In this document: piece by piece, positions 4,281 through 41,092 of the stretch
How positions within the stretch are numbered: position 1 is the stretch's first letter
Layout of the letters: every line of letters begins with the position of its first letter
Origin: Candidatus Moraniibacteriota bacterium
Lineage (GTDB): Bacteria; Patescibacteriota; Minisyncoccia; Moranbacterales; GWC2-37-73
Reading direction: 5' to 3'
Length of the DNA stretch: 41,637 nucleotides
Assembly (NCBI GenBank): GCA_013336225.1
Contig: JAAXUC010000003.1
Span: forward strand, 73,564 to 115,200
Notes under the pieces: generated by a model
Told to the model about the DNA's origin: nothing
What the model saw: the letters and a program-made list of their open reading frames with translations, nothing else
Database searches by the model: none
Translations under genes and position numbers: made by a program

Positions 4281-4289
4281 TTAGTTTTT

Positions 4290-4438
4290 TAAAATCCAAA
4301 TTTCAAAATATTAATGTTTTGCCTCGAGCTTATCCCTTGGGGACAAATAAATGACTAAATATTAAAATCCAAAAATTAGGATTTTGAACTTTTGATTTTA
4401 TTGGACATTTGTCATTTGGGTTTTGGATTTTCATACAA
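4290..4438 (+). repeat. AT-rich palindromic repeat upstream of rnc
   Basis: The left part has AAATCCAAATTTCAAA and ACAAATAAATGACT; the right part has TTGGACATTTGTCATTTGGG and ends GGATTTTCATAC just before the rnc ATG. The two halves are rough reverse complements. The same words recur before murD, the delta' gene and rmuC. A TTGGACATTTG word could act as a -35 region. Confidence 0.55.
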
Positions 4439-5196: not shown

Positions 5197-5245
5197 GAAA
5201 TCCAAAATCCAAAATCCCAATAACAAATAAATGACTCAATATTGC
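5197..5245 (+). repeat. Half copy of the AT-rich repeat
   Basis: ATCCAAAATCCAAAATCCC and AACAAATAAATGACTCAATA match the left arm of the palindromes found before rnc and rmuC. No right arm is evident before the next gene. Confidence 0.45.
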
Positions 5246-7010: not shown

Positions 7011-7146
7011 TGACAAATATCTATCTTCAAACTTATTTCTTGGAGACAGATAGAATTCAAAATATTGGATCCTTAAATGCCTAGCATTTTGGATTTGAGT
7101 CATTTATTTGACATTTGGATTTTGACATTGAGATTTCTGATATAGT
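7011..7146 (+). repeat. AT-rich palindromic repeat upstream of murD
   Basis: The left portion has TCTGAATGACAAATATC, and the right portion has GAGTCATTTATTTGACATTT then GGATTTTGACATTGAGATTT, ending at the murD ATG. The right arm is the reverse complement of the AAATCCAAAT...CAAATAAATGACT arm seen before rmuC. TTGACATTTGG is promoter-like. Confidence 0.55.
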
Positions 7147-10560: not shown

Positions 10561-11823
10561 ATGGAATATTTTGAAATCATTGGGGGCAAAAAACTTGCTG
10601 GGACAATTGATGTGCGAGGGTCGAAAAATGCGACCACGCCAATTTTGGCTGCCACTGTTCTCACGAGCGGCGAATGTGTCATTTCAAACATCCCACTGAT
10701 TGAAGATGTCTATCGCATGTTGGAGATTTTGGAAAGCATGGGCGTGACTGTTACTTGGGAAGGTGAGCGCACGGTGCGGATTTGTGCCAAGGATCTTGAT
10801 CCGACAAAAATTGATTTGCAGATTGTGAAAAAGTTGCGTTCTTCAATTTTGCTGCTGGGGTCACTTTCTGCGCGCGCTGATAAATTTAAGATCGCACATC
10901 CAGGTGGTTGTACTATTGGCAAGCGTCCAGTGGGAACACATTTTGACGCGTTGGAAAAAATGGGAGTGACCACCACGCAAGACGAAGACTGCTATCATGT
11001 TAATGCTTCAAAAAGAAAAGCTGGTAAGGTGGTGCTGCAAGAATTTTCAGTGACAGCCACAGAAAATGCAATGATGCTGGCCGCAACTTTGCCTGGGACA
11101 ACAATCATCAAGATTGCAGCCTGCGAGCCGCACGTGGAAGATTTGGGAAAGTTTTTGGTTTCCATGGGCGCAAAAATTTCTGGACTTGGAACACATACTT
11201 TGGAGATTGTGGGATGCGAGAATCTTGGTGGAGCTGCGCATGAAATTATTGCTGATGCTAATGAGGCCGCCACGTTTTTGATTATGGGTGTGGCCACTAA
11301 AAGTCCAATCACGGTTAATGGCGCGCATGAGGATCATTTGGATATTGTACTGGAAAGACTTAGACAATTTGGCGCTGATTTTAAAATTGAAAAAGATTCA
11401 ATCACGGTGATTCCTGTTGACAGCTTAAAAGCAATTGATAAGATTGACACCAGGACATATCCTGGTGTGCCGTCTGACGTGCAGCAACCATTGGGCGTGT
11501 TGGCCACGCAAGCGGTGGGCAAAACCATGATTTTTGACACGATTTTCGAAGGACGTTTCAATTATTTGAGCGAGCTGGAAAAAATGGGAGCCAAAGCAAT
11601 TGTGCTGAATCCTCATCAAGCTTTGATTTCAGGGCCAGTTAAATTGCGTGGAAGTTCCATTAAGAGTTTTGATTTACGCGCGGGAGCATCTCTGATCATT
11701 GCAGCACTTTGCGCCAAGGGAACCACAACGATTGATGAGATTTATCAAGTTGATCGCGGATATGAAAGAATTGAAGAGCGTCTGGCAAAATTGGGCGCTG
11801 ACATTAAGAGGGTTAGCAAATAA
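10561..11823 (+). CDS. murA: UDP-N-acetylglucosamine 1-carboxyvinyltransferase
   Basis: The first committed enzyme of peptidoglycan synthesis; it transfers enolpyruvate from PEP to UDP-GlcNAc in the cytoplasm. The 420-residue length is standard. It has the N-terminal GSKNATTPILAATVL substrate loop (Lys22-Asn23 type). The active-site loop HPGGCTIGKRPVGTHF has the catalytic cysteine at C117, the residue attacked by fosfomycin; lineages with Asp there are resistant, this one has Cys. Later motifs include NEAATFLIMG, TYPGVPSDVQQP and DLRAGASLIIAALCAKG. No SD. The gene has its own promoter and is followed by a large hairpin element. Confidence 0.97.
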   Translation: MEYFEIIGGKKLAGTIDVRGSKNATTPILAATVLTSGECVISNIPLIEDVYRMLEILESMGVTVTWEGERTVRICAKDLDPTKIDLQIVKKLRSSILLLGSLSARADKFKIAHPGGCTIGKRPVGTHFDALEKMGVTTTQDEDCYHVNASKRKAGKVVLQEFSVTATENAMMLAATLPGTTIIKIAACEPHVEDLGKFLVSMGAKISGLGTHTLEIVGCENLGGAAHEIIADANEAATFLIMGVATKSPITVNGAHEDHLDIVLERLRQFGADFKIEKDSITVIPVDSLKAIDKIDTRTYPGVPSDVQQPLGVLATQAVGKTMIFDTIFEGRFNYLSELEKMGAKAIVLNPHQALISGPVKLRGSSIKSFDLRAGASLIIAALCAKGTTTIDEIYQVDRGYERIEERLAKLGADIKRVSK

Positions 11824-11841
11824 TTTTATTTTTGTTGTTGT

Positions 11842-11964
11842 GTGAATTTCATCTCAGTTATTTTCTTTTGAGAGCACGCTCACAATTGAAGAACTGTAAT
11901 TGCTCGCTCGGAGTTCGCTGTCGCTCACTACGGCTTCAAAAGAAAACAACTTCGTGAAATTGCG
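11842..11964 (+). repeat. Large GCTCGCTCGG-family element (between murA and the HD gene)
   Basis: Imperfect outer arms of about 32 nt (from GTGAATTTCATCTC to its counterpart ending GTGAAATTGCG) enclose TTTTGAGAGCAC. An inner ACAATTG ... TAATTG stem follows, then TGCTCGCTCGGAGTTCGCTG and TCGCTCACTACGGCTTC. The same inner blocks recur at 20880-20995 with different but again complementary outer arms. Confidence 0.7.
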
Positions 11965-11990
11965 TCTATATTCATTTTAAGATTGATTAT

Positions 11991-12692
11991 ATGAAAATCT
12001 GGAAAGATAAAAAACTGGCTGGAAAATATGGAAAAGTTCAAGCACTGGTTGAAAAAGAACTTGCTTGTAGCGCGCATGATATGGATCATGTTATGCGTGT
12101 GTATAATATGGCGCTTGCGATTGCGAAACATGAAAAGAAAGTTGATTTGGATATTTTGAAAATGGCGACATTGTTGCATGACATTGCTCGAGTTAAAGAA
12201 GATAGTGATAAGACCGGCAACACTTGTCATGCTGAAGAATCTGCAAAAATGTGTGTCCCTATTTTGAAAAAGATTGGATATACTGATAAAAAAATAGAAA
12301 AAATTGTGCACTGCATTTCAGCTCATCGCTATAAGACCAATAATAAGCCAGAAACAATTGAGGCGAAAATATTGTTTGATGCAGATAAGTTGGATTCATT
12401 GGGAGCAATCGTTATTTTGAGAGCTGGCATGTGGATGGGGAGAAATGGTTGCAGTCTTTTCCCAAAAATGGAACTGGAAAAATATGCAAAATTAAATTTG
12501 ATGGGAGGAAAACTTACTGGCAGAATAAAGGATAATAGTTTGCATAATGTTTTCTATGAGCATGAAATAAAAGGGAAGATGCTGGTTGGAAAAATGCATA
12601 CAAAAGAAGCTTTGAGAATTGCAAAAGAAAGATTTAAATATATGGATATGTTTTTAAATAGAATTGAGAAAGAGGCTGAAGGAATTTTATAA
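11991..12692 (+). CDS. HD-domain metal-dependent phosphohydrolase
   Basis: A 233-residue cytoplasmic protein of the HD superfamily, which hydrolyses phosphate esters, often of nucleotides. The metal-binding set is visible: AHDMDHVMRV (H29, H33), LLHDIARV (H63, D64), CHAEESA (H80), SAHRYK and FDADKLDSLGA. This order matches the small 'HD domain-containing hydrolase' group rather than RelA/SpoT (no synthetase or TGS domain). The substrate cannot be read from sequence. The start ATG lacks an SD. The MazG-like gene begins 11 nt downstream, so the two probably form an operon dealing with nucleotide turnover. Confidence 0.88.
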   Translation: MKIWKDKKLAGKYGKVQALVEKELACSAHDMDHVMRVYNMALAIAKHEKKVDLDILKMATLLHDIARVKEDSDKTGNTCHAEESAKMCVPILKKIGYTDKKIEKIVHCISAHRYKTNNKPETIEAKILFDADKLDSLGAIVILRAGMWMGRNGCSLFPKMELEKYAKLNLMGGKLTGRIKDNSLHNVFYEHEIKGKMLVGKMHTKEALRIAKERFKYMDMFLNRIEKEAEGIL

Positions 12693-12703
12693 ATAACAAT
12701 CTT

Positions 12704-13036
12704 ATGGAAAAATTTTATAATGCAATTGCGGAGTTTCATGAGAAGAATGAAATGAAGGGGACGAATAATGAGGAGATGACTTTTCGTTTGAATTTGATGA
12801 CTGAAGAGTTGGGGGAATTGGCTGAGGCTGTGACGAAGGGAAAATCAAGAGAAGAATTTTTGGAGGAAAATATTGATTTGGTGATTTTGATCCTTGGAAA
12901 CATGATCAGCACTGGAATTGGCGTGAAAGAATTTGAAGAAGCTTTCTGGAAAAAACATGAAAAAATCATGAGCAGAGAAAAGAGAAAATTGAACAATGGA
13001 AATTTTAGAGTGTCAGAATTCAGAGAAAAAGAATAA
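12704..13036 (+). CDS. MazG-like nucleotide pyrophosphohydrolase
   Basis: A 110-residue, all-helical protein. It shows the metal-binding pattern of the MazG/all-alpha NTP pyrophosphatase superfamily: EELGELAEAV in the second helix (ExxE type) and EENIDLVILILGN in the third (ExxD type). Members remove pyrophosphate from nucleoside triphosphates, often damaged ones. This is the short single-domain form. It is coupled to the HD phosphohydrolase upstream, and mreB follows 31 nt later. The final 20 residues are charged and probably disordered. The exact substrate is unknown. Confidence 0.82.
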   Translation: MEKFYNAIAEFHEKNEMKGTNNEEMTFRLNLMTEELGELAEAVTKGKSREEFLEENIDLVILILGNMISTGIGVKEFEEAFWKKHEKIMSREKRKLNNGNFRVSEFREKE

Positions 13037-13067
13037 TCCGTTAATTTGTTAATTATCTTATACTGAT

Positions 13068-14075
13068 ATGTTTATTAGACGGATAGGTATAGACTTAGGA
13101 ACTGCAAATACCTTGGTTTTCATTCCAGGGAAAGGTATTGTGGTGAATGAACCTTCGGTGGTGGCTGTCTCTCCGGTGGAGAACATTGTTTTGGCAGTGG
13201 GGAATCAAGCGCGCGAAATGCTTGGACGTACGCCGGACAACATTGTGGCATCGCGCCCAATGAAAGATGGTGTGATTGCTGATTATCGCGTGACGGAAGC
13301 GATGCTGAAATATTTCATCAATAAGGTGACTGGCAAAGTGCGAATTTTCAAACCGGAAATCATGATTTCCATTCCAGCTGGCGTGACTTCAACTGAGCGG
13401 CGCGCCGTGATTGATGCTGCTGTGAAAGCTGGAGCAAAATCAGCCTATGTCGTGAAGGAACCACTCCTGGCTGCAATCGGTGCTGGAATTCCGATTCACA
13501 ATGCTTCAGGAAACATGATCATTAATATTGGGGGTGGAACATCCGAGATCGCTGTAATTTCGTTGGGCGGGGTTGTGGCAGCGCACAGCGCACGTGTGGG
13601 TGGAAATAAATTCGATCAAGCAATTTCTGATTATATCAAAAGAAAATATGGCTTGGCAGTTGGCGATCGCACGGCTGAAGATATCAAAAAAGAAATTGGC
13701 TCAGCCATTGCTCAAGTCAAAGAAGATCACATGGATGTACGTGGACGCGATTTGATGGGCGGACTTCCTAAGACCATTAAGATTTCCTCCAATGAAGTGA
13801 CGGAAGCACTCCAAGATGAGCTGCGTGAAGTGATCAATGCGATTAAAAAAGTTTTTCAAGAAACGCCGCCAGAACTTGCTGCTGACATCATGGATAAGGG
13901 AATGATTCTTTCAGGCGGAGGAGCATTGCTGCGCAATCTTGATCAATTGATCACAAAAACAATTGGCGTCCCATGCTATGTGGCTGACGATCCCTTGTTT
14001 TGCGTGATTAAGGGGATTGGAATTGCCCTTGATAATCTTGACGTGTATAAGCGTACAATCACACTGGCAAAATAG
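13068..14075 (+). CDS. mreB: Rod shape-determining protein MreB
   Basis: A bacterial actin that forms membrane-bound filaments directing lateral wall synthesis. The 335-residue length is typical. ATP-binding motifs are seen: GIDLGTANTLVF (phosphate 1), MIINIGGGTSEIAVIS (phosphate 2) and GMILSGGGALLRNLD (adenosine). PMKDGVIADYRVTEAML and VKEPLLAAIGAGIPI are family hallmarks. The N-terminal MFIRRIG lacks a long amphipathic helix. A TATACT box ends only 3 nt before the ATG, too close for a normal start, so the promoter is probably further up. mreC and mreD do not follow, unlike in E. coli. Confidence 0.97.
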   Translation: MFIRRIGIDLGTANTLVFIPGKGIVVNEPSVVAVSPVENIVLAVGNQAREMLGRTPDNIVASRPMKDGVIADYRVTEAMLKYFINKVTGKVRIFKPEIMISIPAGVTSTERRAVIDAAVKAGAKSAYVVKEPLLAAIGAGIPIHNASGNMIINIGGGTSEIAVISLGGVVAAHSARVGGNKFDQAISDYIKRKYGLAVGDRTAEDIKKEIGSAIAQVKEDHMDVRGRDLMGGLPKTIKISSNEVTEALQDELREVINAIKKVFQETPPELAADIMDKGMILSGGGALLRNLDQLITKTIGVPCYVADDPLFCVIKGIGIALDNLDVYKRTITLAK

Positions 14076-14171
14076 GTTTGTTTGAGGCCAATCGTTCGGG
14101 TATATTTCCTTCTTTTTCTCTTTAACGATAACCACTCAGATACATTATTGTTTCCCGTTTTTTTCATTGAA

Positions 14172-14318
14172 GAATGTAAATTTTTCTGCGAAATTAAACT
14201 TGAGCTCTATATTTTTTAGCTAAAATTTTTCGTGGTCACGCGAGTCCCGCGCAAGAAACAAAAAATTTTAGAAAAAATATAGGCTCTCAGACAGTAATTT
14301 CTCGAAAAATTTGCATTC
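14172..14318. repeat. 147-bp imperfect palindrome between mreB and the first glycosyltransferase
   Basis: The left arm starts GAATGTAAATTTTTCTGCG and the right arm ends CTCGAAAAATTTGCATTC. They pair, with small gaps, for about 67-70 nt each, including TATATTTTTTAGCTAAAATT against AATTTTAGAAAAAATATA. The centre is CGCGAGTCCCGCGC. It is the longest inverted repeat in the window. No coding frame accompanies it. Confidence 0.75.
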
Positions 14319-14335
14319 CTCAATTATTAATATAT

Positions 14336-15472
14336 ATGATGAAAATTGGAATTGATGCTTCGCGAGCATTTTTGAAACAAAGAACTGGAATTGAAGAATA
14401 TTCATATCGAGTTATTGAAAACTTGCGTGACAAATTGAATGGTCATCAAGTTTTTTTGTATGTCAGAAAAAAACAAGAGATTGATTTTGAATTGCCAGAA
14501 AATTGGCGCGTAAAAGTTATAAAATTTCCTAGATTTTGGACGCAATTGGGATTGTCGCTTGAAATGCTTTTGCATCCAGTGGACACGCTTTTGATTCCAG
14601 CACATACGGTGCCACTGATCCATCCAAAAAATACGATCGTGATTGTGCATGGATTGGAATATGAATTTTGTCCCGGCGCATATTCTTGGTTTGAGCGTTT
14701 TTATATGCGCTTGACGATTAAGAAATCTTGTCAGTGGGCAAGTAAAATAATTTCAGTTTCGGAGAATACTAAGAAAGATTTGATAAATTTATATAAAGTT
14801 GTAGGGGAAAAAATTTCCGTGATTTATGAAGGATATAATCGCAATTTTGAATTTCCAATTTTGAATTTTGAATCAAATCAGAATAATGAATGTTTAAAAA
14901 TTAAAACATTGGAAATTCAATCAAAATTCAAAATTCAAAATTCAAAATTTTTATTATTTGTCGGGCGAATTGAGGAGCGGAAAAATATTGGCAATATTAT
15001 TAAAGCATTTGAAATATTAAAAGAAAAATATAAAATTCCTCATAAATTAATATTGGCGGGAAAGCCTGGACATGGATATGAAAATATCAAATATCAAATT
15101 ACAAATTCCAAATGTTGTGAAGAAATTAAGGAGCTTGGTTTTGTCGGTGAAGAGGAGAAATGGGAATTATTAAAAAAGGCTGATGTTTTTGTTTTTCCGA
15201 CACTATATGAAGGATTTGGAATTCCAATCTTGGAGGCGCAAAGCGTGGGTTGTCCTGTGGTGGCTTCAAACAATTCTTCAATTCCTGAGATTGCTCAAGA
15301 TTCAGCCATTTTGACTAACCCTGAAAAGCCTGAGGAAATTGCAGAAAGCATGGATAGACTTATCTCGAATAAAAGCCTGAAAGATGATATAATAGCCAAA
15401 GGCTTGGAAAATGTGCGGAGATTTAGCTGGGAGAAATGTGCCCAGGAGATTTCAGAAGTTCTCTTGAAATAA
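14336..15472 (+). CDS. GT4-family glycosyltransferase with in-frame repeat insertion
   Basis: A cytoplasmic GT-B fold enzyme transferring a sugar from a nucleotide donor, probably to a lipid-linked or surface glycan. The 378-residue protein begins MMKIGIDASRAFLKQRTGIEEYS (either ATG at 14336 or 14339). The N-domain ends near VSENTKKDL...VIYEGYN. The C-domain begins LLFVGRIEERKN and has LILAGKPGHGYE and the donor-site E-x7-E pattern in LYEGFGIPILEAQSVGCPVVAS. Between the domains, residues 170-205 are coded by a palindromic AT-rich element (14843-14950), and a shorter repeat-like stretch gives IKYQITNSK near 15085-15110. Donor and acceptor are unknown. No SD. Confidence 0.9.
   Translation: MMKIGIDASRAFLKQRTGIEEYSYRVIENLRDKLNGHQVFLYVRKKQEIDFELPENWRVKVIKFPRFWTQLGLSLEMLLHPVDTLLIPAHTVPLIHPKNTIVIVHGLEYEFCPGAYSWFERFYMRLTIKKSCQWASKIISVSENTKKDLINLYKVVGEKISVIYEGYNRNFEFPILNFESNQNNECLKIKTLEIQSKFKIQNSKFLLFVGRIEERKNIGNIIKAFEILKEKYKIPHKLILAGKPGHGYENIKYQITNSKCCEEIKELGFVGEEEKWELLKKADVFVFPTLYEGFGIPILEAQSVGCPVVASNNSSIPEIAQDSAILTNPEKPEEIAESMDRLISNKSLKDDIIAKGLENVRRFSWEKCAQEISEVLLK
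14843..14950 (+). repeat. 108-bp palindromic element inside a glycosyltransferase gene (copy 1)
   Basis: It starts AATTTTGAATTTCCAATTTT and ends with tandem TTCAAAA units; the two ends are reverse complements. It codes for 36 residues (NFEFPI ... QNSKF) and keeps the frame. The same element occurs at 16474-16581. Confidence 0.85.
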
Positions 15473-15500
15473 AAAAAGCAGAGTTTTGTAAAAACTCTGC
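15471..15500 (-). terminator. Terminator for the minus-strand gene 15531-15824
   Basis: GCAGAGTTTT-GTA-AAAACTCTGC (15478-15500) forms a perfect ten-pair stem. Seven A residues precede it on the plus strand, so on the minus strand it ends in seven T. The plus direction lacks a T run. Confidence 0.88.
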
Positions 15501-15530
15501 CTAAATGTGCGAATGACGCTGTTTTTGTTG

Positions 15531-15824
15531 CTAGATCTTTTTCAGTATTTCCCTTGCAGCTGAAACTGCTTCATCTATTCTGTCGATGAGAGAAGCTAAT
15601 CGTTGTTGTATTTTGACAAAGTTATCAATATCATCGTCAACGCAATTTATCGTTATTGCTAACGAATAGATGCCATCATCCTCTTTTGCATTGTTTGTTT
15701 CAATGGAAAAGCCTAGTTCTTCATCAACTTTTTCCCCTGAGATGTGAAGATAATCGTTGAGTGCCGCAAGTGAGAATGCTGTCATTGTTAGGTCAATCAC
15801 TAGTGGGCGTATGTGTACTTTCAT
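15531..15824 (-). CDS. Hypothetical small protein in a self-contained minus-strand cassette
   Basis: A 97-residue protein, start chosen at the ATG at 15824 because GGAGGG lies 4 nt upstream; a TTG at 15836 overlaps that SD. It begins MKVHIRPLVIDLTMTAF. The middle (GIYSLAITINCVDDDIDNF) looks like beta strands and the C-terminal 35 residues (QQRLASLIDRIDEAVSAAREIL) a helix, suggesting a small alpha/beta fold. No family recognised. It sits between two glycosyltransferases on the opposite strand, with its own promoter and terminator, like a phage moron or gene cassette. Confidence 0.72.
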   Translation of the reverse strand: MKVHIRPLVIDLTMTAFSLAALNDYLHISGEKVDEELGFSIETNNAKEDDGIYSLAITINCVDDDIDNFVKIQQRLASLIDRIDEAVSAAREILKKI

Positions 15825-15868
15825 TTTTCCCTCCAAAGAACTAAGATAGAAGTCGGAGACTTCAAATA

Positions 15869-15897
15869 AAGATACTAAAATTATGGAAAATAGTCAA
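15869..15897 (-). promoter_or_regulatory. Promoter of the minus-strand cassette
   Basis: Read on the minus strand: TTGACT (15897-15892), 17 nt, TATCTT (15874-15869). The inverted repeat GAAGTC-GGA-GACTTC (15849-15863) lies at the start of the RNA. The promoter overlaps the first codons of the glycosyltransferase at 15883, so the two units could interfere. Confidence 0.6.
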
Positions 15898-17076
15898 GTA
15901 AAAAGGAATATTAAAGTTGCCATTGTGCATGATTTTTTGGTGCAGTCTGGTGGAGCAGAGAGGGTGCTGAAAGAAATTTCTGACATGTATCCCGAGGCGC
16001 CAATCTTTACGTTGCTATATGATAAGGAAAAAATGCATGGAATGCTTGAAGGCAAGGATATTAGGCCGTCATATTTGCAAAAATTTCCAAAATTCCTCAG
16101 AAGAAATTATCGCTTTTTGCTGCCATTTTTTCCAGTGATTCCGGAAACATTTGATCTTCGAGAATATGATTTGGTGCTTTCATCATCAGGCGCGTGGAGC
16201 AAGGGGATTGTGACGAAATTGGACACGGTGCACATTGCCTATTTGCATTCTCCGATGCGCTGGGTTTGGGATTATAATGAGAAATATTTAAAAGAAAGCA
16301 AGAGGAGGAAATCTGGCTTTTTGTTGAGATTTGTTTTCAACTATTTGCGAATCTGGGATCGTTTGGCAGCTGAGCGTCCAGATTTTCTGATTTCAAATTC
16401 AATCTACACGCAAAAGCGTGTGGGCAAATATTACAGACGCGATAGTATGGTTATTTATCCACCAGTTAATATTAATTTTGAATTTCCAATTTCGAATTTC
16501 GAATCAAATCAGAATGAAAAAATTTCGAAAATTGAAACATTAAAAATTCATTCAAAATTCAAAATTCAAAATTCAAAATTTTTCCTCGTTATTTCTCGCT
16601 TGTCGGCCTATAAAAAAATTGATTTGGTGGTTGAGGCTTTTAATAAACTCGGACTTCCTTTAGTGGTGATTGGGGAAGGCGAGCAGACAAAATATCTCAA
16701 AAAAATTGCTAAAGAGAATATCCAAATTTTGGGATGGCAAGACGATGAGACCAAACAGAAATATTTTCAAAATGCTCAGGCTTTCATTTTTCCAACTGAG
16801 GATGATTTTGGCATTGCGCCAGTTGAAGCCATGCTCGCTGGCGTGCCAGTGATTGCGCTTAGGAAAGGTGGCGCACTGGAAACGATTCAGGAGGGAATTA
16901 CGGGCGAATTTTTTGATGCTCAGACTGCAGAGGTTTTGGCTGATGGTGTCAGGAGATTTTTAAATAACAAGGGTAAATATGATAAGACGGTGATTGTAAA
17001 GAGAGGGGAAGAATTTAGTCGGGAGAGATTTAGAGATGAATTTAGGAAGTTTGTGGATAAAAAGATGGCTGATTAA
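15883..17076 (+). CDS. GT4-family glycosyltransferase (mannosyltransferase-like) with in-frame repeat insertion
   Basis: A GT-B enzyme of 397 residues. The N-domain opens VKVAIVHDFLVQSGGAERVL, with the nucleotide-sugar-enzyme hallmark GGAERV; LHSPMRWVWDYNEKY and ISNSIYTQKRVGKYYRR follow. The C-domain starts FLVISRLSAYKKIDLVVEAF and has VVIGEGEQ, FPTEDDFGIAPVEAMLAG and GGALETI. This motif set is typical of WbaZ-like transferases of polysaccharide clusters; mannose is a guess. Residues 198-233 are coded by a 108-bp palindromic element at the interdomain linker, the same place as in the gene at 14336. No SD. The start is inside the promoter of the divergent small gene. Confidence 0.9.
   Translation: MENSQVKRNIKVAIVHDFLVQSGGAERVLKEISDMYPEAPIFTLLYDKEKMHGMLEGKDIRPSYLQKFPKFLRRNYRFLLPFFPVIPETFDLREYDLVLSSSGAWSKGIVTKLDTVHIAYLHSPMRWVWDYNEKYLKESKRRKSGFLLRFVFNYLRIWDRLAAERPDFLISNSIYTQKRVGKYYRRDSMVIYPPVNINFEFPISNFESNQNEKISKIETLKIHSKFKIQNSKFFLVISRLSAYKKIDLVVEAFNKLGLPLVVIGEGEQTKYLKKIAKENIQILGWQDDETKQKYFQNAQAFIFPTEDDFGIAPVEAMLAGVPVIALRKGGALETIQEGITGEFFDAQTAEVLADGVRRFLNNKGKYDKTVIVKRGEEFSRERFRDEFRKFVDKKMAD
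16474..16581 (+). repeat. 108-bp palindromic element inside a glycosyltransferase gene (copy 2)
   Basis: Same length as copy 1. The encoded 36 residues match copy 1 at 28 positions, while the flanking enzyme sequences are only distantly alike. It ends with TTCAAAATTCAAAATTCAAA. Reading frame is maintained. Confidence 0.85.
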
Positions 17077-17093
17077 TATAAATGTAATTAATT

Positions 17094-17205
17094 AAATCCA
17101 AAATCTGAATGACAAATGTCAAATAAATGACAAATGTCACAATGACAAAATTTAGATTTAGGATTTTATTTGGATTTTAGATTTTGGCATTGAGATTTTT
17201 CGTAT
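17094..17205 (+). repeat. AT-rich palindromic repeat upstream of the delta' gene
   Basis: AAATCCAAAATCTGAATGAC, CAAATAAATGACAAATG and, on the right, GGATTTTATTTGGATTTTAG and TTTTGGCATTGAGATTTTTC, ending 2 nt before the ATG. The arms are rough reverse complements, and the right end matches the region before murD (ACATTGAGATTTCT). Confidence 0.55.
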
Positions 17206-18105
17206 ATGGATTTTATCGGAAATAAAAAAGCAGTAGATGTTCTTCAGAAAAGCATTAAAAATGCTGCGCTTAATCACGCTTATCTTTTTTCGGGTCCAGA
17301 GCGGGTGGGGAAATTCACCCTGGCTAAAATGTTTGCGCTTAGTGCTATTGCTGGAGCTCAACTTAGCTTGGATGTTGAGCTGGAGAATAAAGATGCCTTG
17401 CTAGATTTGATAATTGTGGAGCCTGAAATTGTCACAAAAAACGGCATTTCAAAACAACGAGACATTTCCATTGAATCAGTGCGCGACGCCAAGCAGAGTT
17501 TGAGCCTATATCCATATCATGGAAAATATAAAATCCTCATTATTAATGATGCGCATAAATTGAATGTTTCGGCGCAAAATGCTTTGCTGAAAATTCTGGA
17601 AGAACCAAATCAGACAACAATTCTCATTTTGGTCACCAGTGAAATTGATCGCATTTTGCCAACCATGCTTTCGCGCTTGCAAGTCATTAATTTTGGCTTG
17701 GTGCGTGATGAGGACATGCAAATTGGTTTTGGAGGCAATTTTTCTTTTCAGAAAGATTGCATCGAGCTTTCCATTGGCAGGCCAGGATTGGCTCAATTTT
17801 TGAATGAAAATATTGAAGAAAAGAATTTCAGAATGGATGCCTTGCTGGAATTTGAAAAAATAAAGAAAGGTTCATTGAATGATAAATTTAAATTGGCGGA
17901 AGAACTTTCCAAGGATGCTGTCAGGACACTTGATAAATTGAACATTTGGATGTGGGAAATTCGCAAGCTGGGGATTTCAGGTGAAAATCAGCAAGGTATT
18001 GTTGCTTGCTGCCATATTGATAAAATTCAAAAAAGCATGGCAATTCTCAAGCGCACAAATGCAAACAGTCGATTGATTTTGGAAACCTTATTTATGGATC
18101 TGTAA
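17206..18105 (+). CDS. holB: DNA polymerase III clamp-loader subunit delta'-like
   Basis: An AAA+ protein of the clamp loader, 299 residues. It opens MDFIGNKKAVDVLQKSI, followed by NHAYLFSGPERVGKFTLAK with a P-loop (GPERVGKF, residues 30-37), IESVRDAKQSLSLYPYHGKYK, IINDAHKLNVSAQNALLKILEEP and TMLSRLQVINF (the SRC-type sensor region reads SRL, without Cys). The four zinc-binding cysteines of DnaX/HolB are absent. A C-terminal helical domain follows. HolB rather than DnaX fits the size and the single domain set. The ATG lacks an SD. The FtsQ-like gene starts 2 nt after its stop, so they are translationally close. Confidence 0.88.
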   Translation: MDFIGNKKAVDVLQKSIKNAALNHAYLFSGPERVGKFTLAKMFALSAIAGAQLSLDVELENKDALLDLIIVEPEIVTKNGISKQRDISIESVRDAKQSLSLYPYHGKYKILIINDAHKLNVSAQNALLKILEEPNQTTILILVTSEIDRILPTMLSRLQVINFGLVRDEDMQIGFGGNFSFQKDCIELSIGRPGLAQFLNENIEEKNFRMDALLEFEKIKKGSLNDKFKLAEELSKDAVRTLDKLNIWMWEIRKLGISGENQQGIVACCHIDKIQKSMAILKRTNANSRLILETLFMDL

Positions 18106-18107
18106 AA

Positions 18108-18998
18108 ATGGCAATACGATATATAAAAAATTGCACAGGAGATGATTGTGAGGGCGAAAGAAAGTCTTCACAGGTCATTTCTAAAATAATTTTCTACTTA
18201 CTTTTGGTGAGTTTTGTTGCTGTATTTACTTACATGCTGTTTTTTTCACAGTATCTTAAGGTTGGAAATATCGAGATAGTTGGCACTTTGGAATTAAGCA
18301 GTCAGGAAATGAAGCAGGGTATGGAGGATTCGATGCAGGGCAAATATTTTGGAATAATTCCAAAAAACAATTTCCTGTTTTTTTCGCAGAAAAATGTTGA
18401 GAAACTCTTGACGGATAATTACAAAAAAATTCGCACAGTGACAGTGACTAAAAAATTTCCCGATACGATCAATATTGTCATTGATGAGCGCAAGGCTCTT
18501 TTGGTCTGGTGTGCAAGGGAGGAATGCTACTTGCTTGATGAACAAGGCTTTGCCTATAGTGTTGCTGATTTCTCTTCTCCTGAATTGATGCAAAATCATC
18601 TCTTGCAAATCAATGATGCCAGTGGACGGGAAGTTTCAATTGGCAGCAAAATCATTGAACCAGCCTACGAACAATATGTTTTGAGTATTAAAGATGAATT
18701 GGCTAAAATTGGTTTTAATGTGACTGATCAATATTGGACACCCTCGCGCATGGCCGAAGAAATCAATGTAAAAACTGATCAAGATTTGGAATTTTATTTT
18801 TCCACACAATTTGAATTGAAATCAGCTCTTGATACTTTGAATATTATCCTTAAAAAAGAAATTCCCAAGGAGAAAGAAGCTGAAATTGCCTATATCGATC
18901 TTCGCAATGAAAACAAAGCTTTTTATAGGTTTAAAAATGTTGAGCCTGTTTCTGAAAATCTGGAGGTTGCAGGTGAGGAAGTAAAAAAGGAAGAATAA
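18108..18998 (+). CDS. ftsQ: FtsQ/DivIB-like cell division protein
   Basis: A bitopic division protein linking early and late divisome proteins. Of 296 residues, about 25-46 form one membrane helix (IIFYLLLVSFVAVFTYMLFF) after a charged cytoplasmic start. The extracellular part begins with a POTRA-like region (LKVGNIEIVGTLELSSQEM ... KIRTVTVTKKFPDTINIVIDERKALLVW). An FtsQ-type beta domain follows, with CAREECYLLDEQGFAY. A Glu/Lys-rich tail closes it. It is tightly coupled to the delta' gene, an unusual pairing of replication and division; murC or ftsA are not adjacent. The subfamily call rests on topology and POTRA pattern. Confidence 0.82.
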   Translation: MAIRYIKNCTGDDCEGERKSSQVISKIIFYLLLVSFVAVFTYMLFFSQYLKVGNIEIVGTLELSSQEMKQGMEDSMQGKYFGIIPKNNFLFFSQKNVEKLLTDNYKKIRTVTVTKKFPDTINIVIDERKALLVWCAREECYLLDEQGFAYSVADFSSPELMQNHLLQINDASGREVSIGSKIIEPAYEQYVLSIKDELAKIGFNVTDQYWTPSRMAEEINVKTDQDLEFYFSTQFELKSALDTLNIILKKEIPKEKEAEIAYIDLRNENKAFYRFKNVEPVSENLEVAGEEVKKEE

Positions 18999-19017
18999 TG
19001 GGAAATAATAAGAAATG

Positions 19018-19050
19018 AAAAAAGCTTTCGAAAGTTTCTCGAAAGCTTTT
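19018..19050. terminator. Bidirectional terminator between ftsQ and the minus-strand gene
   Basis: AAAAGCTTTCGA (19020-19031), a 7-nt loop and TCGAAAGCTTTT (19039-19050) form a perfect twelve-pair stem with A before and T after, suited to both strands. Confidence 0.88.
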
Positions 19051-19058
19051 CAGGAAGA

Positions 19059-19397
19059 TCATATTATGGGGGAGATGTGGGTGCATTGCTTGATGGAAGA
19101 AATTAATTCAGCATTAGCTGGATCCCCAATAAATTCCTTAAGCGCCTGTCTTGTTTCAGGTTCCGATCTTTGTGTTGCTACCTCCATGAGAAAGCAAAAA
19201 GTTATTTTCTTGTCATTTTCATGAGTAGTTGGCTCCAATAAGATCTTGCTGAGAAAATCTCTTGCCATGGAATTGCCACTGGAGGACATGAGTCCAATTT
19301 CACGAAGCCACATGCATCTGCCTCCCATGCCGGAGTGGCTATTTTTATACATCTCAATTAATTCTGGTAGACTTAACTTGGTTACTCTTTTTAACAT
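19059..19397 (-). CDS. Hypothetical small helical protein in a minus-strand cassette
   Basis: A 112-residue protein with mostly helical character. Blocks such as LSLPELIEMYKNS, SMARDFLSKILLEPTTHENDKK and EPETRQALKEFIGDPANAELISSI are spaced like short HEAT-type helical repeats, but I cannot assign a family. GGGGGTG lies 5 nt before the ATG. The gene lies opposite to its neighbours, with its own promoter (19440-19467) and a shared bidirectional terminator. It ends in TGA. Confidence 0.7.
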   Translation of the reverse strand: MLKRVTKLSLPELIEMYKNSHSGMGGRCMWLREIGLMSSSGNSMARDFLSKILLEPTTHENDKKITFCFLMEVATQRSEPETRQALKEFIGDPANAELISSIKQCTHISPII

Positions 19398-19439
19398 AGC
19401 ACACCCCCATTAGAATATGTAAAGAACAATATATCTTTA

Positions 19440-19467
19440 TATATACTCCAAAAGACGAATAAGTCAA
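19440..19467 (-). promoter_or_regulatory. Promoter of the 19059-19397 gene
   Basis: On the minus strand: TTGACT (19467-19462), then TATATA at a spacing of 16 nt (19445-19440) or 18 nt (19443-19438). Confidence 0.55.
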
Positions 19468-19519
19468 ACAAATATTCTCATAACTTGAATTCATCCTGAT
19501 ATTGCGCTAGCATTAGAAT

Positions 19520-20836
19520 ATGAAACAAAAAACAGCGCTCGATATCTTGAAACTTGGACATAATGTTTTTTTGACCGGTCCGGCTGGCTCTGGTAAGACA
19601 TTCTTGCTCAAACAATATATTGATTATCTCAAAAAAAACAATATTGGTGTGGCAATCACGGCTAGCACTGGAATTGCTGCCACACACATGAATGGTCAAA
19701 CCATTCATTCTTGGTCAGGCATGGGAATCAGCGACACTTTCAATGAAGAAGATTACACTAAGCTCAAAAAAAGACATTACCATAAGCAGAAATTTAAAAA
19801 TGCCAAGGTGCTTATTATTGATGAGGTTTCAATGTTGCATGCACATCAATTGGATATTGTTAATGCGATTTGTAAGAAATTTAAAGAGCCATTTTCTCCG
19901 TTTGGAGGATTGCAGGTGATTTTGTGTGGAGATTTTTTTCAGTTGCCACCGGTGGCCAAATATGGACAGATGGCGCGCTTCGTCATTGAGTCTGAGGCGT
20001 GGGAAGAGATGGATCCAAAAATTTGCTATCTGGAAGAACAGCATCGGCAGGAAGACAAACAAATGCTCAAGATTTTGAATGACATTCGCAGTCGCTCGTG
20101 TAATCAGAAAACATTGGATCTGATCATTTCTCGTCAAAGCAAAACCATTAAAAATGAGATCACTCCAACCAGACTGTTCACACACAATATTAACGTGGAT
20201 GCGATTAATGATTTGGAATTGCAAAAACTCAAAGAAAAGCCTAATATGTTTTTAATGACCTCTGCTGGCAATGAGCACTTGGTTGCCTCAGTTAAAAAAG
20301 GATGTCTAGCACCTGAAATGTTGGTGCTTAAAAAAGGCGCAGTGGTGATGTTTGTGAAAAACAATTTTGAGCGCGGATACGTTAATGGCACCTTGGGAAA
20401 AGTGAGTGACTTTGATGTCAATGGTATGCCAATCGTGAAAACATTTGCAGGACGAACAATCATTGCAACTCCTGAAAAATGGTCGATTGAAGATGGCGAC
20501 GCTGCGCTAGCCTCAGTCAATCAAGTGCCGCTGCGCTTGGCTTGGGCGATTACAGTGCACAAAAGTCAGGGTATGACACTGGATGCTGTTGAAATGGATT
20601 TGAGCAAATCATTTGAATATGGCATGGGCTATGTTGCTCTTTCGCGCGTCAGGACACTGGATGGAATTAAGTTGCTTGGAATCAATGACATGGCTCTGGA
20701 AGTGAATCCGAAAGTGTATGAGCTGGATAAGATTCTAGGGGAGTTGTCTCAGCAAAGTGTGGATGAAATTCTTAAGATGAAAATTTTGAAAAAGCGCGCC
20801 TTGCAAGCAGATTTTTTGGAGAGATGTGAGGATTAA
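19520..20836 (+). CDS. PIF1/RecD2-type superfamily 1 helicase
   Basis: A DNA helicase of 438 residues, 5'-3' by family. Walker A is GPAGSGKT (residues 20-27), followed by ITASTGIAATHMNGQTIHSW (motif Ia, characteristic of PIF1), VLIIDEVSML (Walker B), LQVILCGDFFQLPPV (motif III), EEQHRQ, and, near the end, LRLAWAITVHKSQGMTLDAVEMDL and GMGYVALSRVRTLDGIKLLG (motifs V and VI). It is the compact bacterial form without accessory N- or C-terminal domains. Likely roles are replication-fork restart or G-quadruplex unwinding. The ATG lacks an SD. It is a stand-alone gene. Confidence 0.94.
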   Translation: MKQKTALDILKLGHNVFLTGPAGSGKTFLLKQYIDYLKKNNIGVAITASTGIAATHMNGQTIHSWSGMGISDTFNEEDYTKLKKRHYHKQKFKNAKVLIIDEVSMLHAHQLDIVNAICKKFKEPFSPFGGLQVILCGDFFQLPPVAKYGQMARFVIESEAWEEMDPKICYLEEQHRQEDKQMLKILNDIRSRSCNQKTLDLIISRQSKTIKNEITPTRLFTHNINVDAINDLELQKLKEKPNMFLMTSAGNEHLVASVKKGCLAPEMLVLKKGAVVMFVKNNFERGYVNGTLGKVSDFDVNGMPIVKTFAGRTIIATPEKWSIEDGDAALASVNQVPLRLAWAITVHKSQGMTLDAVEMDLSKSFEYGMGYVALSRVRTLDGIKLLGINDMALEVNPKVYELDKILGELSQQSVDEILKMKILKKRALQADFLERCED

Positions 20837-20879
20837 TGGATCATACGCAACACATGATTATAGGTATAAAAGAAAACCA

Positions 20880-20995
20880 TTTTTGTTTCACCTGCTTTCT
20901 CTTGAGAGCACATTCGTAGCCGAAAATCTATGGCTACTCACTCGGACCTCGCTCTCGCTCGCTACGGCTTCAAGAAAAAGCAGGTGAAGCAAAAA
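20880..20995 (+). repeat. Large GCTCGCTCGG-family element after the PIF1-like gene
   Basis: Outer arms of 26 nt (20880-20905 and 20970-20995) pair with two mismatches. Inside come TTGAGAGCAC, then a GTAGCC ... GGCTAC stem, then CACTCGGACCTCGCTCTCGC and TCGCTACGGCTTC. The inner blocks match 11842-11964; the stem sequences differ. Confidence 0.75.
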
Positions 20996-21058
20996 CTTAC
21001 GTATTGGGCATGATCTGGAATAGTGGATTAAATTTATAATATATTTAATTTAAAAAAT

Positions 21059-21247
21059 ATGGAAAATAAAATAAACGTAGAGATTGGAAAATGTCCCCAA
21101 GATCATGAATGTCCCTTGGTTGGAATTTGTCCCGTGGGTGCAATCACGCAAGATGGTTTTGCGGCGCCAATAATTGATCAGGAAAAATGCATCACCTGTG
21201 GCGCGTGCGTGGCATCTTGTCCGTATCAAGCTTTGTCTTTTGAATAA
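21059..21247 (+). CDS. Small ferredoxin-like 4Fe-4S protein
   Basis: A 62-residue electron-transfer protein. The second half has a standard cluster motif, CITCGACVASCP (C44, C47, C50, C54), in the context APIIDQEKCITCGAC. The first half has only three cysteines, C12, C18 and C24, in KCPQDHECPLVGICPVGAI; spacing is not the usual CxxCxxC, though the CP after the last is kept. It may bind one canonical 4Fe-4S and either a 3Fe or an unusual cluster, or just one cluster. No SD. The HTH gene follows 25 nt later. The partner redox enzyme is not in the window. Confidence 0.88.
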   Translation: MENKINVEIGKCPQDHECPLVGICPVGAITQDGFAAPIIDQEKCITCGACVASCPYQALSFE

Positions 21248-21272
21248 ATAATTTTAAAAAGTATAAAAAATT

Positions 21273-21461
21273 ATGGGGTCATATAATTTCACCAAGGAAA
21301 GAAAAAAAGTGTACGAACTTCATGCGAAGGGTTTGTTTTTTCGCGATATTGCAAAGGAATGCAAAATTTCCGCAACAAGGGCTCATCAAATTGTCAGGAG
21401 AGTTGAGGAAAATATTCCGAAGGAGGAATTAGATAAAATCAGAGCGAAATATTCCAAATAA
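21273..21461 (+). CDS. Small helix-turn-helix DNA-binding protein
   Basis: A 62-residue protein. FFRDIAKECKISATRAHQIV resembles the recognition region of sigma-factor region 4 (compare EIGERLGVSRERVRQIE). Nothing else fits in the sequence, so it is a bare HTH, perhaps acting as a dimer. It lies directly after the ferredoxin and may be co-transcribed with it. The target is unknown. The start ATG has no SD. Confidence 0.75.
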   Translation: MGSYNFTKERKKVYELHAKGLFFRDIAKECKISATRAHQIVRRVEENIPKEELDKIRAKYSK

Positions 21462-21506
21462 ATAGGTATCAACCCTGGGGCAAGCCGCGAGGTATTAACC
21501 AATTTG

Positions 21507-21572
21507 TTATCGTCACTCGCTCGGAAATGATTTTGTCTGCTGACAAATCATTTCGCTCACTACGTTCGATAA
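21507..21572 (+). repeat. GCTCGCTCGG-family hairpin element, copy 3
   Basis: Outer TTATCG/CGATAA arms, flank TCACTCGCTCGG, inner AAATGATTTTGTC-TGCT-GACAAATCATTT stem, flank CGCTCACTACGT. It is preceded by CCCTGGGGCAAGCC and GAGGTATTAA (21473-21498), blocks that also flank copy 4. Confidence 0.75.
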
Positions 21573-21611
21573 TAAAAAGATGACAATATTATTATATTTA
21601 AAATAGAAAAT

Positions 21612-22025
21612 ATGATTTGCCCATTTTGTGAAATTGATAAAGAAAAAACTAGGACAATAAAAGAAGGTGAACATACGCTTGTAATTTTTAGCAATCCCAG
21701 ATTGATGCCTGGACACTTATTAGTTGTTCCAAGGAGACATGTTGAAAAATTGTCAGAACTTTTTGAGGAAGAGAGGAAGGAGATGCTTGATTTTGTGATT
21801 GAATTTCAGGATAAGATTTTGGAAAAAGTCGCAAGAGGTTGTGATATCCGTCAAAATTATAGACCATTTCAAAAACAAAATGATTTAAAGGTACATCACA
21901 TGCATATTCATCTTCAACCAAGAGAGCTCAGAGATGAATTATATGAAAAATGTCAGATTTATGAAACAGAATTATTCAAAAAACTTCCAGATGATGAAAT
22001 AAAAAATAATATTTTGTTTTTTTGA
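21612..22025 (+). CDS. HIT-family nucleotide hydrolase/transferase
   Basis: A 137-residue histidine-triad protein; the family acts on nucleoside phosphoramidates and dinucleoside polyphosphates. It opens with a Cys pair (MICPFCEI, possible zinc site with later residues). RLMPGHLLVVPRRHVEKLSEL and the active-site HHMHIHLQPRE follow, with the triad at H96, H98 and H100. The RQNYRPFQKQNDLKVHH stretch resembles the group with a longer loop before the triad. The C-terminal 30 residues are charged. The substrate is unknown. No SD. It ends in TGA and overlaps the likely -35 of the next gene. Confidence 0.9.
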   Translation: MICPFCEIDKEKTRTIKEGEHTLVIFSNPRLMPGHLLVVPRRHVEKLSELFEEERKEMLDFVIEFQDKILEKVARGCDIRQNYRPFQKQNDLKVHHMHIHLQPRELRDELYEKCQIYETELFKKLPDDEIKNNILFF

Positions 22026-22679: not shown

Positions 22680-22743
22680 TTATCAAGTGAAGTGAGAGAA
22701 ATACTGTCAGCAGACAAGTATTTCCGAGCGAGCGCCGATACCA
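22680..22743 (-). repeat. GCTCGCTCGG-family hairpin element, copy 4 (inverted)
   Basis: Read on the minus strand: CGCTCGCTCGG, AAATACTTGTC-TGCT-GACAGTATTT, then CTCTCACTTCACTTG, with outer TATC/GATA. It sits right at the start of the long leader of the 22926 gene. Confidence 0.72.
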
Positions 22744-22925
22744 AAAGGTTTAATACCTCGAGGCTTGCCTCGAAAACCCAGAGGGTCCAGGGCTTGCCCT
22801 GGGGTATTAATACCCTTTTATTTTTGTGGTTAATCCAGAGAAAGGAGGAATGTGGTAGTAATTTAAAAATATAGGCAGAAGAAGCACCATTTAAAAGTTG
22901 GTAAAATTCAATGGAGGTGGAAAAG
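22744..22925 (+). promoter_or_regulatory. Structured leader of the 22926 gene
   Basis: Hairpins in series: CGAGG-CTTG-CCTCG (22759-22772), CCAGGG-CTTG-CCCTGG (about 22788-22803), and the palindrome GGGTATTAATACCC (22802-22815). AAAGGAGG at 22841-22848 sits before very short frames (ATG TGG TAG at 22850). It may be a regulatory leader or simply repeats next to the gene. Confidence 0.4.
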
Positions 22926-40961: not shown

Positions 40962-40976
40962 ATTAAAATAAAAATT

Positions 40977-41092
40977 AAAATGACAAAATCCAAATTCCAA
41001 ATAAATGACTTAAATCAAAATGCTCAAATTTAAGATTTTAGATTTGGGGTTTTATTTGACATTTGAAATTGAGATTTGAGATTTATTTTCTT
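40977..41092 (+). repeat. AT-rich palindromic repeat upstream of rmuC
   Basis: AAATCCAAATTCCAAATAAA and GACTTAAATCAAAATGC on the left; TTTGGGGTTTTATTTGACATT and GAAATTGAGATTTGAGATTT on the right. It matches the repeats before rnc, murD and the delta' gene and ends a few nt before the ATG. TTTGACATTTG may be a -35. Confidence 0.55.

Follow-up and report, generated by a model that had tools for sequence, protein, structure and literature searches.

In-frame copies of a dispersed hairpin-forming repeat at the hinge of two neighbouring glycosyltransferases in Candidatus Moranbacteria

The locus described here raises the question of why two adjacent glycosyltransferases carry closely similar 36-residue segments at the same position between their two domains, and whether these segments are native linkers or pieces of a repeat read as protein. 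The window, by which we mean the whole stretch of 41,637 nucleotides that was analysed, belongs to a Candidatus Moranbacteria MAG of 1.11 Mb in 31 contigs (G000). The features on which the analysis rests are the following.

14336..15472, + strand: GT1, a GT4-type glycosyltransferase of 378 aa (ORF; Pfam PF13439 and PF00534), with copy 1 between the two domains
14843..14950, + strand: copy 1, the 108-nt hairpin element in GT1, peptide NFEFPILNFESNQNNECLKIKTLEIQSKFKIQNSKF, 92% identical to the RecG copy
14843..14876, + strand: left arm of copy 1, 7-nt units AATTTTG and AATTTCC (inverted repeat; heptamer counts)
14916..14950, + strand: right arm of copy 1, TTCAAAA units, without stops in any of the three frames (inverted repeat; heptamer translation)
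15883..17076, + strand: GT2, a GT4-type glycosyltransferase of 397 aa (ORF; Pfam PF13439 and PF00534), with copy 2 between the two domains
16474..16581, + strand: copy 2, the 108-nt hairpin element in GT2, peptide NFEFPISNFESNQNEKISKIETLKIHSKFKIQNSKF, 94% identical to the copy in the GT1 slot of another species (G014)

Between GT1 and GT2, the minus strand carries an ORF of 101 aa whose function is unknown (15531-15836).

Each copy is exactly 108 nt long and stands in the same reading frame of GT1 and GT2; the two peptides are identical at 28 of 36 residues and the DNA of the element itself at ~88%. The repeat scan reported the pair as a 134-nt direct repeat of 83% identity, GT flanks included. 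GT1 and GT2 are only about one-third identical over the part that can be aligned, and part of their alignment score is contributed by the common 108-nt segment. Both copies are imperfect palindromes, the complementarity between the arms being 83% over 42 nt for copy 1 and 75% over 52 nt for copy 2, and RNA folding gave -27.7 kcal/mol (z -4.6) for copy 1 with its flanks and -19.3 kcal/mol (z -2.5) for copy 2. Sites resembling the arm sequence AATTCAAAATTCAAAATT were observed 10 times in the window against 0.19 expected, all within copies 1 and 2, and the search of the window for such sites revealed no third copy of the element.

The sequence-only reading of this stretch had described two 108-nt in-frame copies at the positions listed above, agreeing at 28 of 36 residues and forming a palindrome, and these claims held, with the qualification that both palindromes are imperfect. 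Its remark that the element is related to intergenic repeats within the window does not strictly hold: those repeats are a different, similarly AT-rich family, since the arm-sequence sites all lie inside copies 1 and 2. That other dispersed family (AAATCCAAAATCC... with TGACAAATGTCAAATAAATGAC) is intergenic and occurs in both orientations, at 4289-4430, 5197-5239, 7088-7144, 17094-17206 and 40972-41020. The window also contains a 50-nt inverted repeat of higher G+C and 86% complementarity (21479-21528 and 22720-22769), the arms of which are 1.2 kb apart and enclose a HIT-like gene and its neighbour, and a 102-nt direct repeat of 71% identity (11847-11948 and 20881-20982), the second copy of which includes a 26-nt hairpin with 92% complementarity.

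AlphaFold models were used to place the segments within the enzymes. The mean pLDDT was 90.5 for GT1 and 86.5 for GT2, falling below 50 in the core of the insert at residues 172-184 and 204-226, respectively, and the second half of the GT1 insert was modelled as a helix of modest confidence. Structure comparison showed that the GT2 fold resembles GT-B enzymes such as BshA. The models thus predict, in both glycosyltransferases, an insert with a disordered core at the hinge, and the GT-B hinge position that had been proposed for both inserts is supported. Misassembly can be set aside because, in each enzyme, the N-half and the C-half are equally close to the same orthologues (77% and 74% for the halves of GT1 against the G016 orthologue, 81% and 80% for those of GT2); this arrangement, with the element in place, is also seen in other MAGs. 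A second candidate insert in GT1 (15081-15113, KYQITNSK) was dropped because the family consensus contains a comparable residue pattern.

The element is not confined to this locus. At least ~40 separate places in G000 match it, ~32 of them over 74 nt or more, and this count is a lower bound because the first-look candidates were not all scored. The element is about 108-117 bp long, and full-length matches to copies elsewhere reach 88-93% DNA identity over 107-108 nt, with E-values down to 3e-40. Judged by the ORFs read in the stretches surrounding each match, most copies in G000 are intergenic or lie at an ambiguous gene start. Full in-frame copies are found in three enzyme genes, GT1, GT2 and RecG, the last with the same orientation and frame as in the glycosyltransferases (peptide NFEFPILNFESNQNDECLKIKTLKIQSKLEIKNSKL), and shorter pieces occur in a third GT4 glycosyltransferase, again at the hinge, and in TsaD. 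The closest named relatives of the genome are Candidatus Moranbacteria. Of the 19 genomes in this GTDB family, 18 carry the element; beyond the family its peptide is scarce, being found in 5 of 287 genomes from the phylum, and both counts include G000. In-frame element-like peptides were also seen in a different Patescibacteria family, in two ORFs (L321 and L322) that by inspection are hydrogenase-large-subunit-like and phosphoglycerate-mutase-like. A pooled search with the peptides of three other heptamer families returned mostly stop-bearing matches and no clear genic case.

The lengths of the slots can be compared with those in relatives. From PPV to YFL, most of the sequences examined from Paenibacillus, WOR-3 and many relatives and paralogues in Patescibacteria have 13 residues, some have 14-18 and a few have more, and paralogues in the same genomes keep mostly 13-18, whereas in GT2 of the window this stretch measures 37-38 residues depending on counting; the 36-codon element therefore replaces most of the old linker and is not a simple addition. 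The GT1 slot holds 38 residues here versus 27 in the two outgroup-like relatives measured, and the RecG slot 49 versus 4 in T. maritima RecG. Two GT2 paralogues, L092 of G011 and L093 of G014, have hinges of 28 and 30 residues as compared with the usual 13-18, and both end in a similar PRVDE..S.RVEAG peptide.

One rival reading is that the segment is an ordinary, fast-evolving, low-complexity and AT-rich linker, whose likeness to the repeat is merely compositional. It is true that all relatives vary at this loop and that the genome is rich in AT. For the element, however, this reading is refuted by the full-length identity to dispersed copies, one of them in an unrelated gene; every genic copy is moreover exactly 108 nt long, and the short linkers of the same-genome paralogues also speak against it. 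We regard it as practically ruled out.

In order to compare genic copies with the rest, we examined six genomes, with 10 full-length genic copies and 66 others. All 10 genic copies are exactly 108 nt long and stop-free in the frame used, whereas none of the 66 others is open in that frame and only one of them is 108 nt long, the commonest lengths being 110 and 117. In G000 alone the coding frame is open in 3/3 genic copies and in 0/26 others, and shuffling the bases of such a 108-mer leaves the frame open in 2.5% of cases. Some of the 10 genic copies are orthologues, so they do not count as independent cases, and outside G000 the contrast is partly circular because the label "non-genic" rests there mostly on the missing open frame.

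How such a repeat can be read through follows from the make-up of its arms, which are arrays of 7-nt units. Since 7 is not divisible by 3, any long array runs through all three frames and is either open in all of them or closed in all. Heptamer translation showed that the right-arm unit TTCAAAA is open in all three frames (FKIQNSK...) and that, among the left-arm units, TTTTGAA contains a stop and TTTCGAA and TTTCCAA do not; these stop-free units predominate in the left arm of 8 of the 10 genic copies. The readability of the heptamers is arithmetic on the sequence, and selection as its driver is an inference.

It could also be argued that the segment never appears in the enzyme, being removed or skipped as an intein, an intron or a translational bypass, and insertions in conserved enzymes with intact flanks would fit this. 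Against it, each full-length genic copy keeps the frame and is free of stops, neither of which would be required of a skipped element; at 36 residues the segment is far below the size of an intein (a hundred or more residues) and the Pfam scan found no intein domain; and a search of window positions 11000-22000 gave no Rfam match. This possibility can be all but dismissed.

We then consider what related genomes carry at the same positions. Over the 19 family genomes, the peptide content of the GT1 and GT2 slots differs between species: NF(E/Q)F(P/R)ISNF in several genomes, and AISHQ...DDRLLMTDD, QLVTSYQLLVTSY, NTEYQIPDTKY, TTYNLQP, HSGLDPESR...LKQVQDD and SLRGCNHPKQSR. A joint search of six genomes with five such linkers found additional partial copies, many of them for the HSGLDPESR-type linker and few, in its own genome, for the GT2 linker of G013. 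Several slot linkers fold as strong hairpins, with z down to -8.1, whereas the short linkers of G010-G012 show no strong hairpin. The RecG slot ranges from near-empty (G007) to full (G000 and G016), with HSEHSEESR in G011, and comparable segments occur in TsaD, Tgt and pyruvate kinase of relatives, all three identified by sequence inspection. A Tgt-like ORF of G011 (L263) carries two in-frame inserts from different repeat families, one of the HSGLDPESR type and one of the NFEFRISNFESN type.

These comparisons show that the inserts occupy permissive-loop positions at which sister species carry other repeat families. The hinge of the glycosyltransferases is in all likelihood a slot used repeatedly by several repeat families and not the site of a single event, and the repeat content of such slots is probably exchangeable inside working enzymes, the activity of the enzymes being inferred. 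The sequence-only reading had explained the shared position by a hinge that tolerates an insert, which is supported and is now refined to a slot refilled by several families. It had named a conserved 36-residue linker in most homologues, or absence of the element from the rest of the genome, as grounds for rejecting it, and neither applies: the linker is mostly 13 residues in outgroups and paralogues, with unrelated repeat-derived peptides in sister species, and the element is abundant elsewhere in G000. Kinship to intergenic repeats held for the genome outside the window, the search for the element in other genes succeeded, and the proposed resemblance to Rickettsia palindromic elements (RPEs) held in the sense that the element works like one, with the correction that most of the native GT2 linker was replaced instead of a peptide simply being added.

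Another explanation is that the element is retained for a job in the mRNA or the protein, for example as an interdomain hairpin that pauses the ribosome or as a hinge peptide that tunes the enzyme. In its favour, the GT hinge has kept hairpins in several families, always at the GT domain boundary. However, genic copies do not form stronger hairpins than the others (median -0.171 versus -0.211 kcal per nt, p 0.11), some relatives have a short linker or one without a hairpin, the RecG and TsaD slots are loops and not a boundary of this kind, and the core of the insert is disordered in the models. We consider such a role very unlikely.

The nearest neighbours of the genic copies bear on how the slots came to be filled. 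In G000 the GT1 copy is closest to the RecG copy of the same genome (92%) and the GT2 copy to the GT1 copy of G014 (94%), whereas the two are 88% identical to each other, below the closest match of each. Identities of this kind show that genic copies are often nearer to copies in other genes than to their orthologues. The two copies would not need to have arrived separately if one insertion had occurred and had then been passed to the adjacent gene by conversion, or been doubled when the gene pair was duplicated; GT1 and GT2 are adjacent and co-oriented, with the insert at the same homologous position, and the GT1 and GT2 copies of G005 are also similar (93%). The identities in G000 argue against this explanation, as does the finding that G013, G014 and G016 carry the element in GT1 only and not in GT2, and it appears highly improbable.

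In a tree of the element, the GT1 and RecG copies of G000 form a pair (support 95/81) that is joined by the RecG copy of G016 (98/90). Constraining all 10 genic copies to one clade gave a better likelihood than the free search (p-AU 0.72), although this arrangement was rarely seen in bootstrap trees; the tree rests on 117 columns only and is poorly resolved. The TsaD slot of G015 is informative in this respect: its left half is identical at 53/56 positions to the GT1 slots of G013 and G016, and its right arm at 29/29 to the GT1 slot of G015 itself. This slot is a mosaic of two GT1-slot contents, and it points to exchange between genes. Convergence under a common coding constraint remains possible as a cause of the tree pattern and is not excluded, but it is hard to square with the TsaD mosaic. 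A bolder reading is that the coding copies make up a separate sub-lineage which moves between the slots of unrelated enzymes, partly by arm-by-arm recombination within the heptamer arrays and largely apart from the intergenic pool; we hold this joint claim only tentatively, the balance lying slightly against it. If it is true, the loops of GT4 enzymes, RecG and TsaD are common docking sites at which protein linkers are exchanged across the genome.

Taken together, the dispersal of the element, its three full in-frame genic copies and the length and frame kept by genic copies, unlike the others, are shown by the data. The best explanation is that both segments are likely translated in-frame copies of a dispersed hairpin-forming repeat that acts in the manner of an RPE, translation being inferred from the open frames in the absence of peptide data. 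Insertions would be tolerated because the loop is of little weight for folding or catalysis and also since the heptamer arms can be read without stops. A coding-adapted 108-nt sub-lineage may then spread or swap between the slots of unrelated genes, with recombination via the arms as the putative route of swapping, and the segment would be a passive, largely disordered linker of the enzyme. The explanation is weakened by the lack of a target-site duplication and of a Y1 transposase in G000, and by the small number of further copies of the G013 linker in its own genome.

The effect of in-frame palindromes on protein evolution has so far been unsettled, and among these related genomes a single site can be seen in an empty, an old and a new state. 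This makes it possible to test directly how proteins gain sequence from mobile DNA, what lets certain loops take it up and how an enzyme copes with 36 residues of foreign origin. Variable linkers in proteins of Patescibacteria should also be read with caution, as they may consist of repeat DNA instead of reflecting adaptation.

Among known systems, RPEs are found as in-frame insertions in numerous genes of Rickettsia (Ogata et al. 2000, 2002, summarised in PMC10969869). The element shares with them that it is a dispersed palindromic repeat in the range of 100-150 bp and that it lies in frame in unrelated enzyme genes as a recurrent tolerated peptide, and the likeness extends to the element pieces in TsaD and other enzymes of relatives. 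It differs in its host, which belongs to another phylum, in its arms of 7-nt arrays and in that most copies are intergenic, the genic copies being a distinct 108-nt type and the slots being refilled by different families. We therefore say that it works like an RPE and not that it is one, because the host is in a different phylum and no sequence kinship has been established. In the open-access literature searched, we found no report of in-frame palindromes in Patescibacteria.

Compared with MITEs and REPs, the element is likewise a short non-autonomous inverted repeat dispersed in a bacterial genome, with terminal inverted repeats. Unlike MITEs it lacks a target-site duplication (22 copies, no surplus of matching flanks), and unlike REPs it has AT-only arms and is longer than 20-40 bp, and G000 has no match to the Y1 (REP-type) transposase PF01797, which is present in 11 of the 19 family genomes. 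The TAACTGA heptamer repeats of Beggiatoaceae, which sometimes lie in ORFs, mainly at protein ends (PMC4679880), are also 7-nt arrays with one orientation closed and the other readable; they are mostly intergenic direct repeats, whereas the element here forms hairpins inside enzymes. WPE-like palindromes lie in frame and stop-free in the Wolbachia recombination genes addA, addB and priA (PMC4224334), to which the RecG copy may be likened by analogy, and the slot turnover and mosaics seen here are not described in the relevant passage of that work. In-frame palindromes have long been known in Rickettsia and Wolbachia; what the present genomes add is that the same protein positions are refilled by different repeat families.
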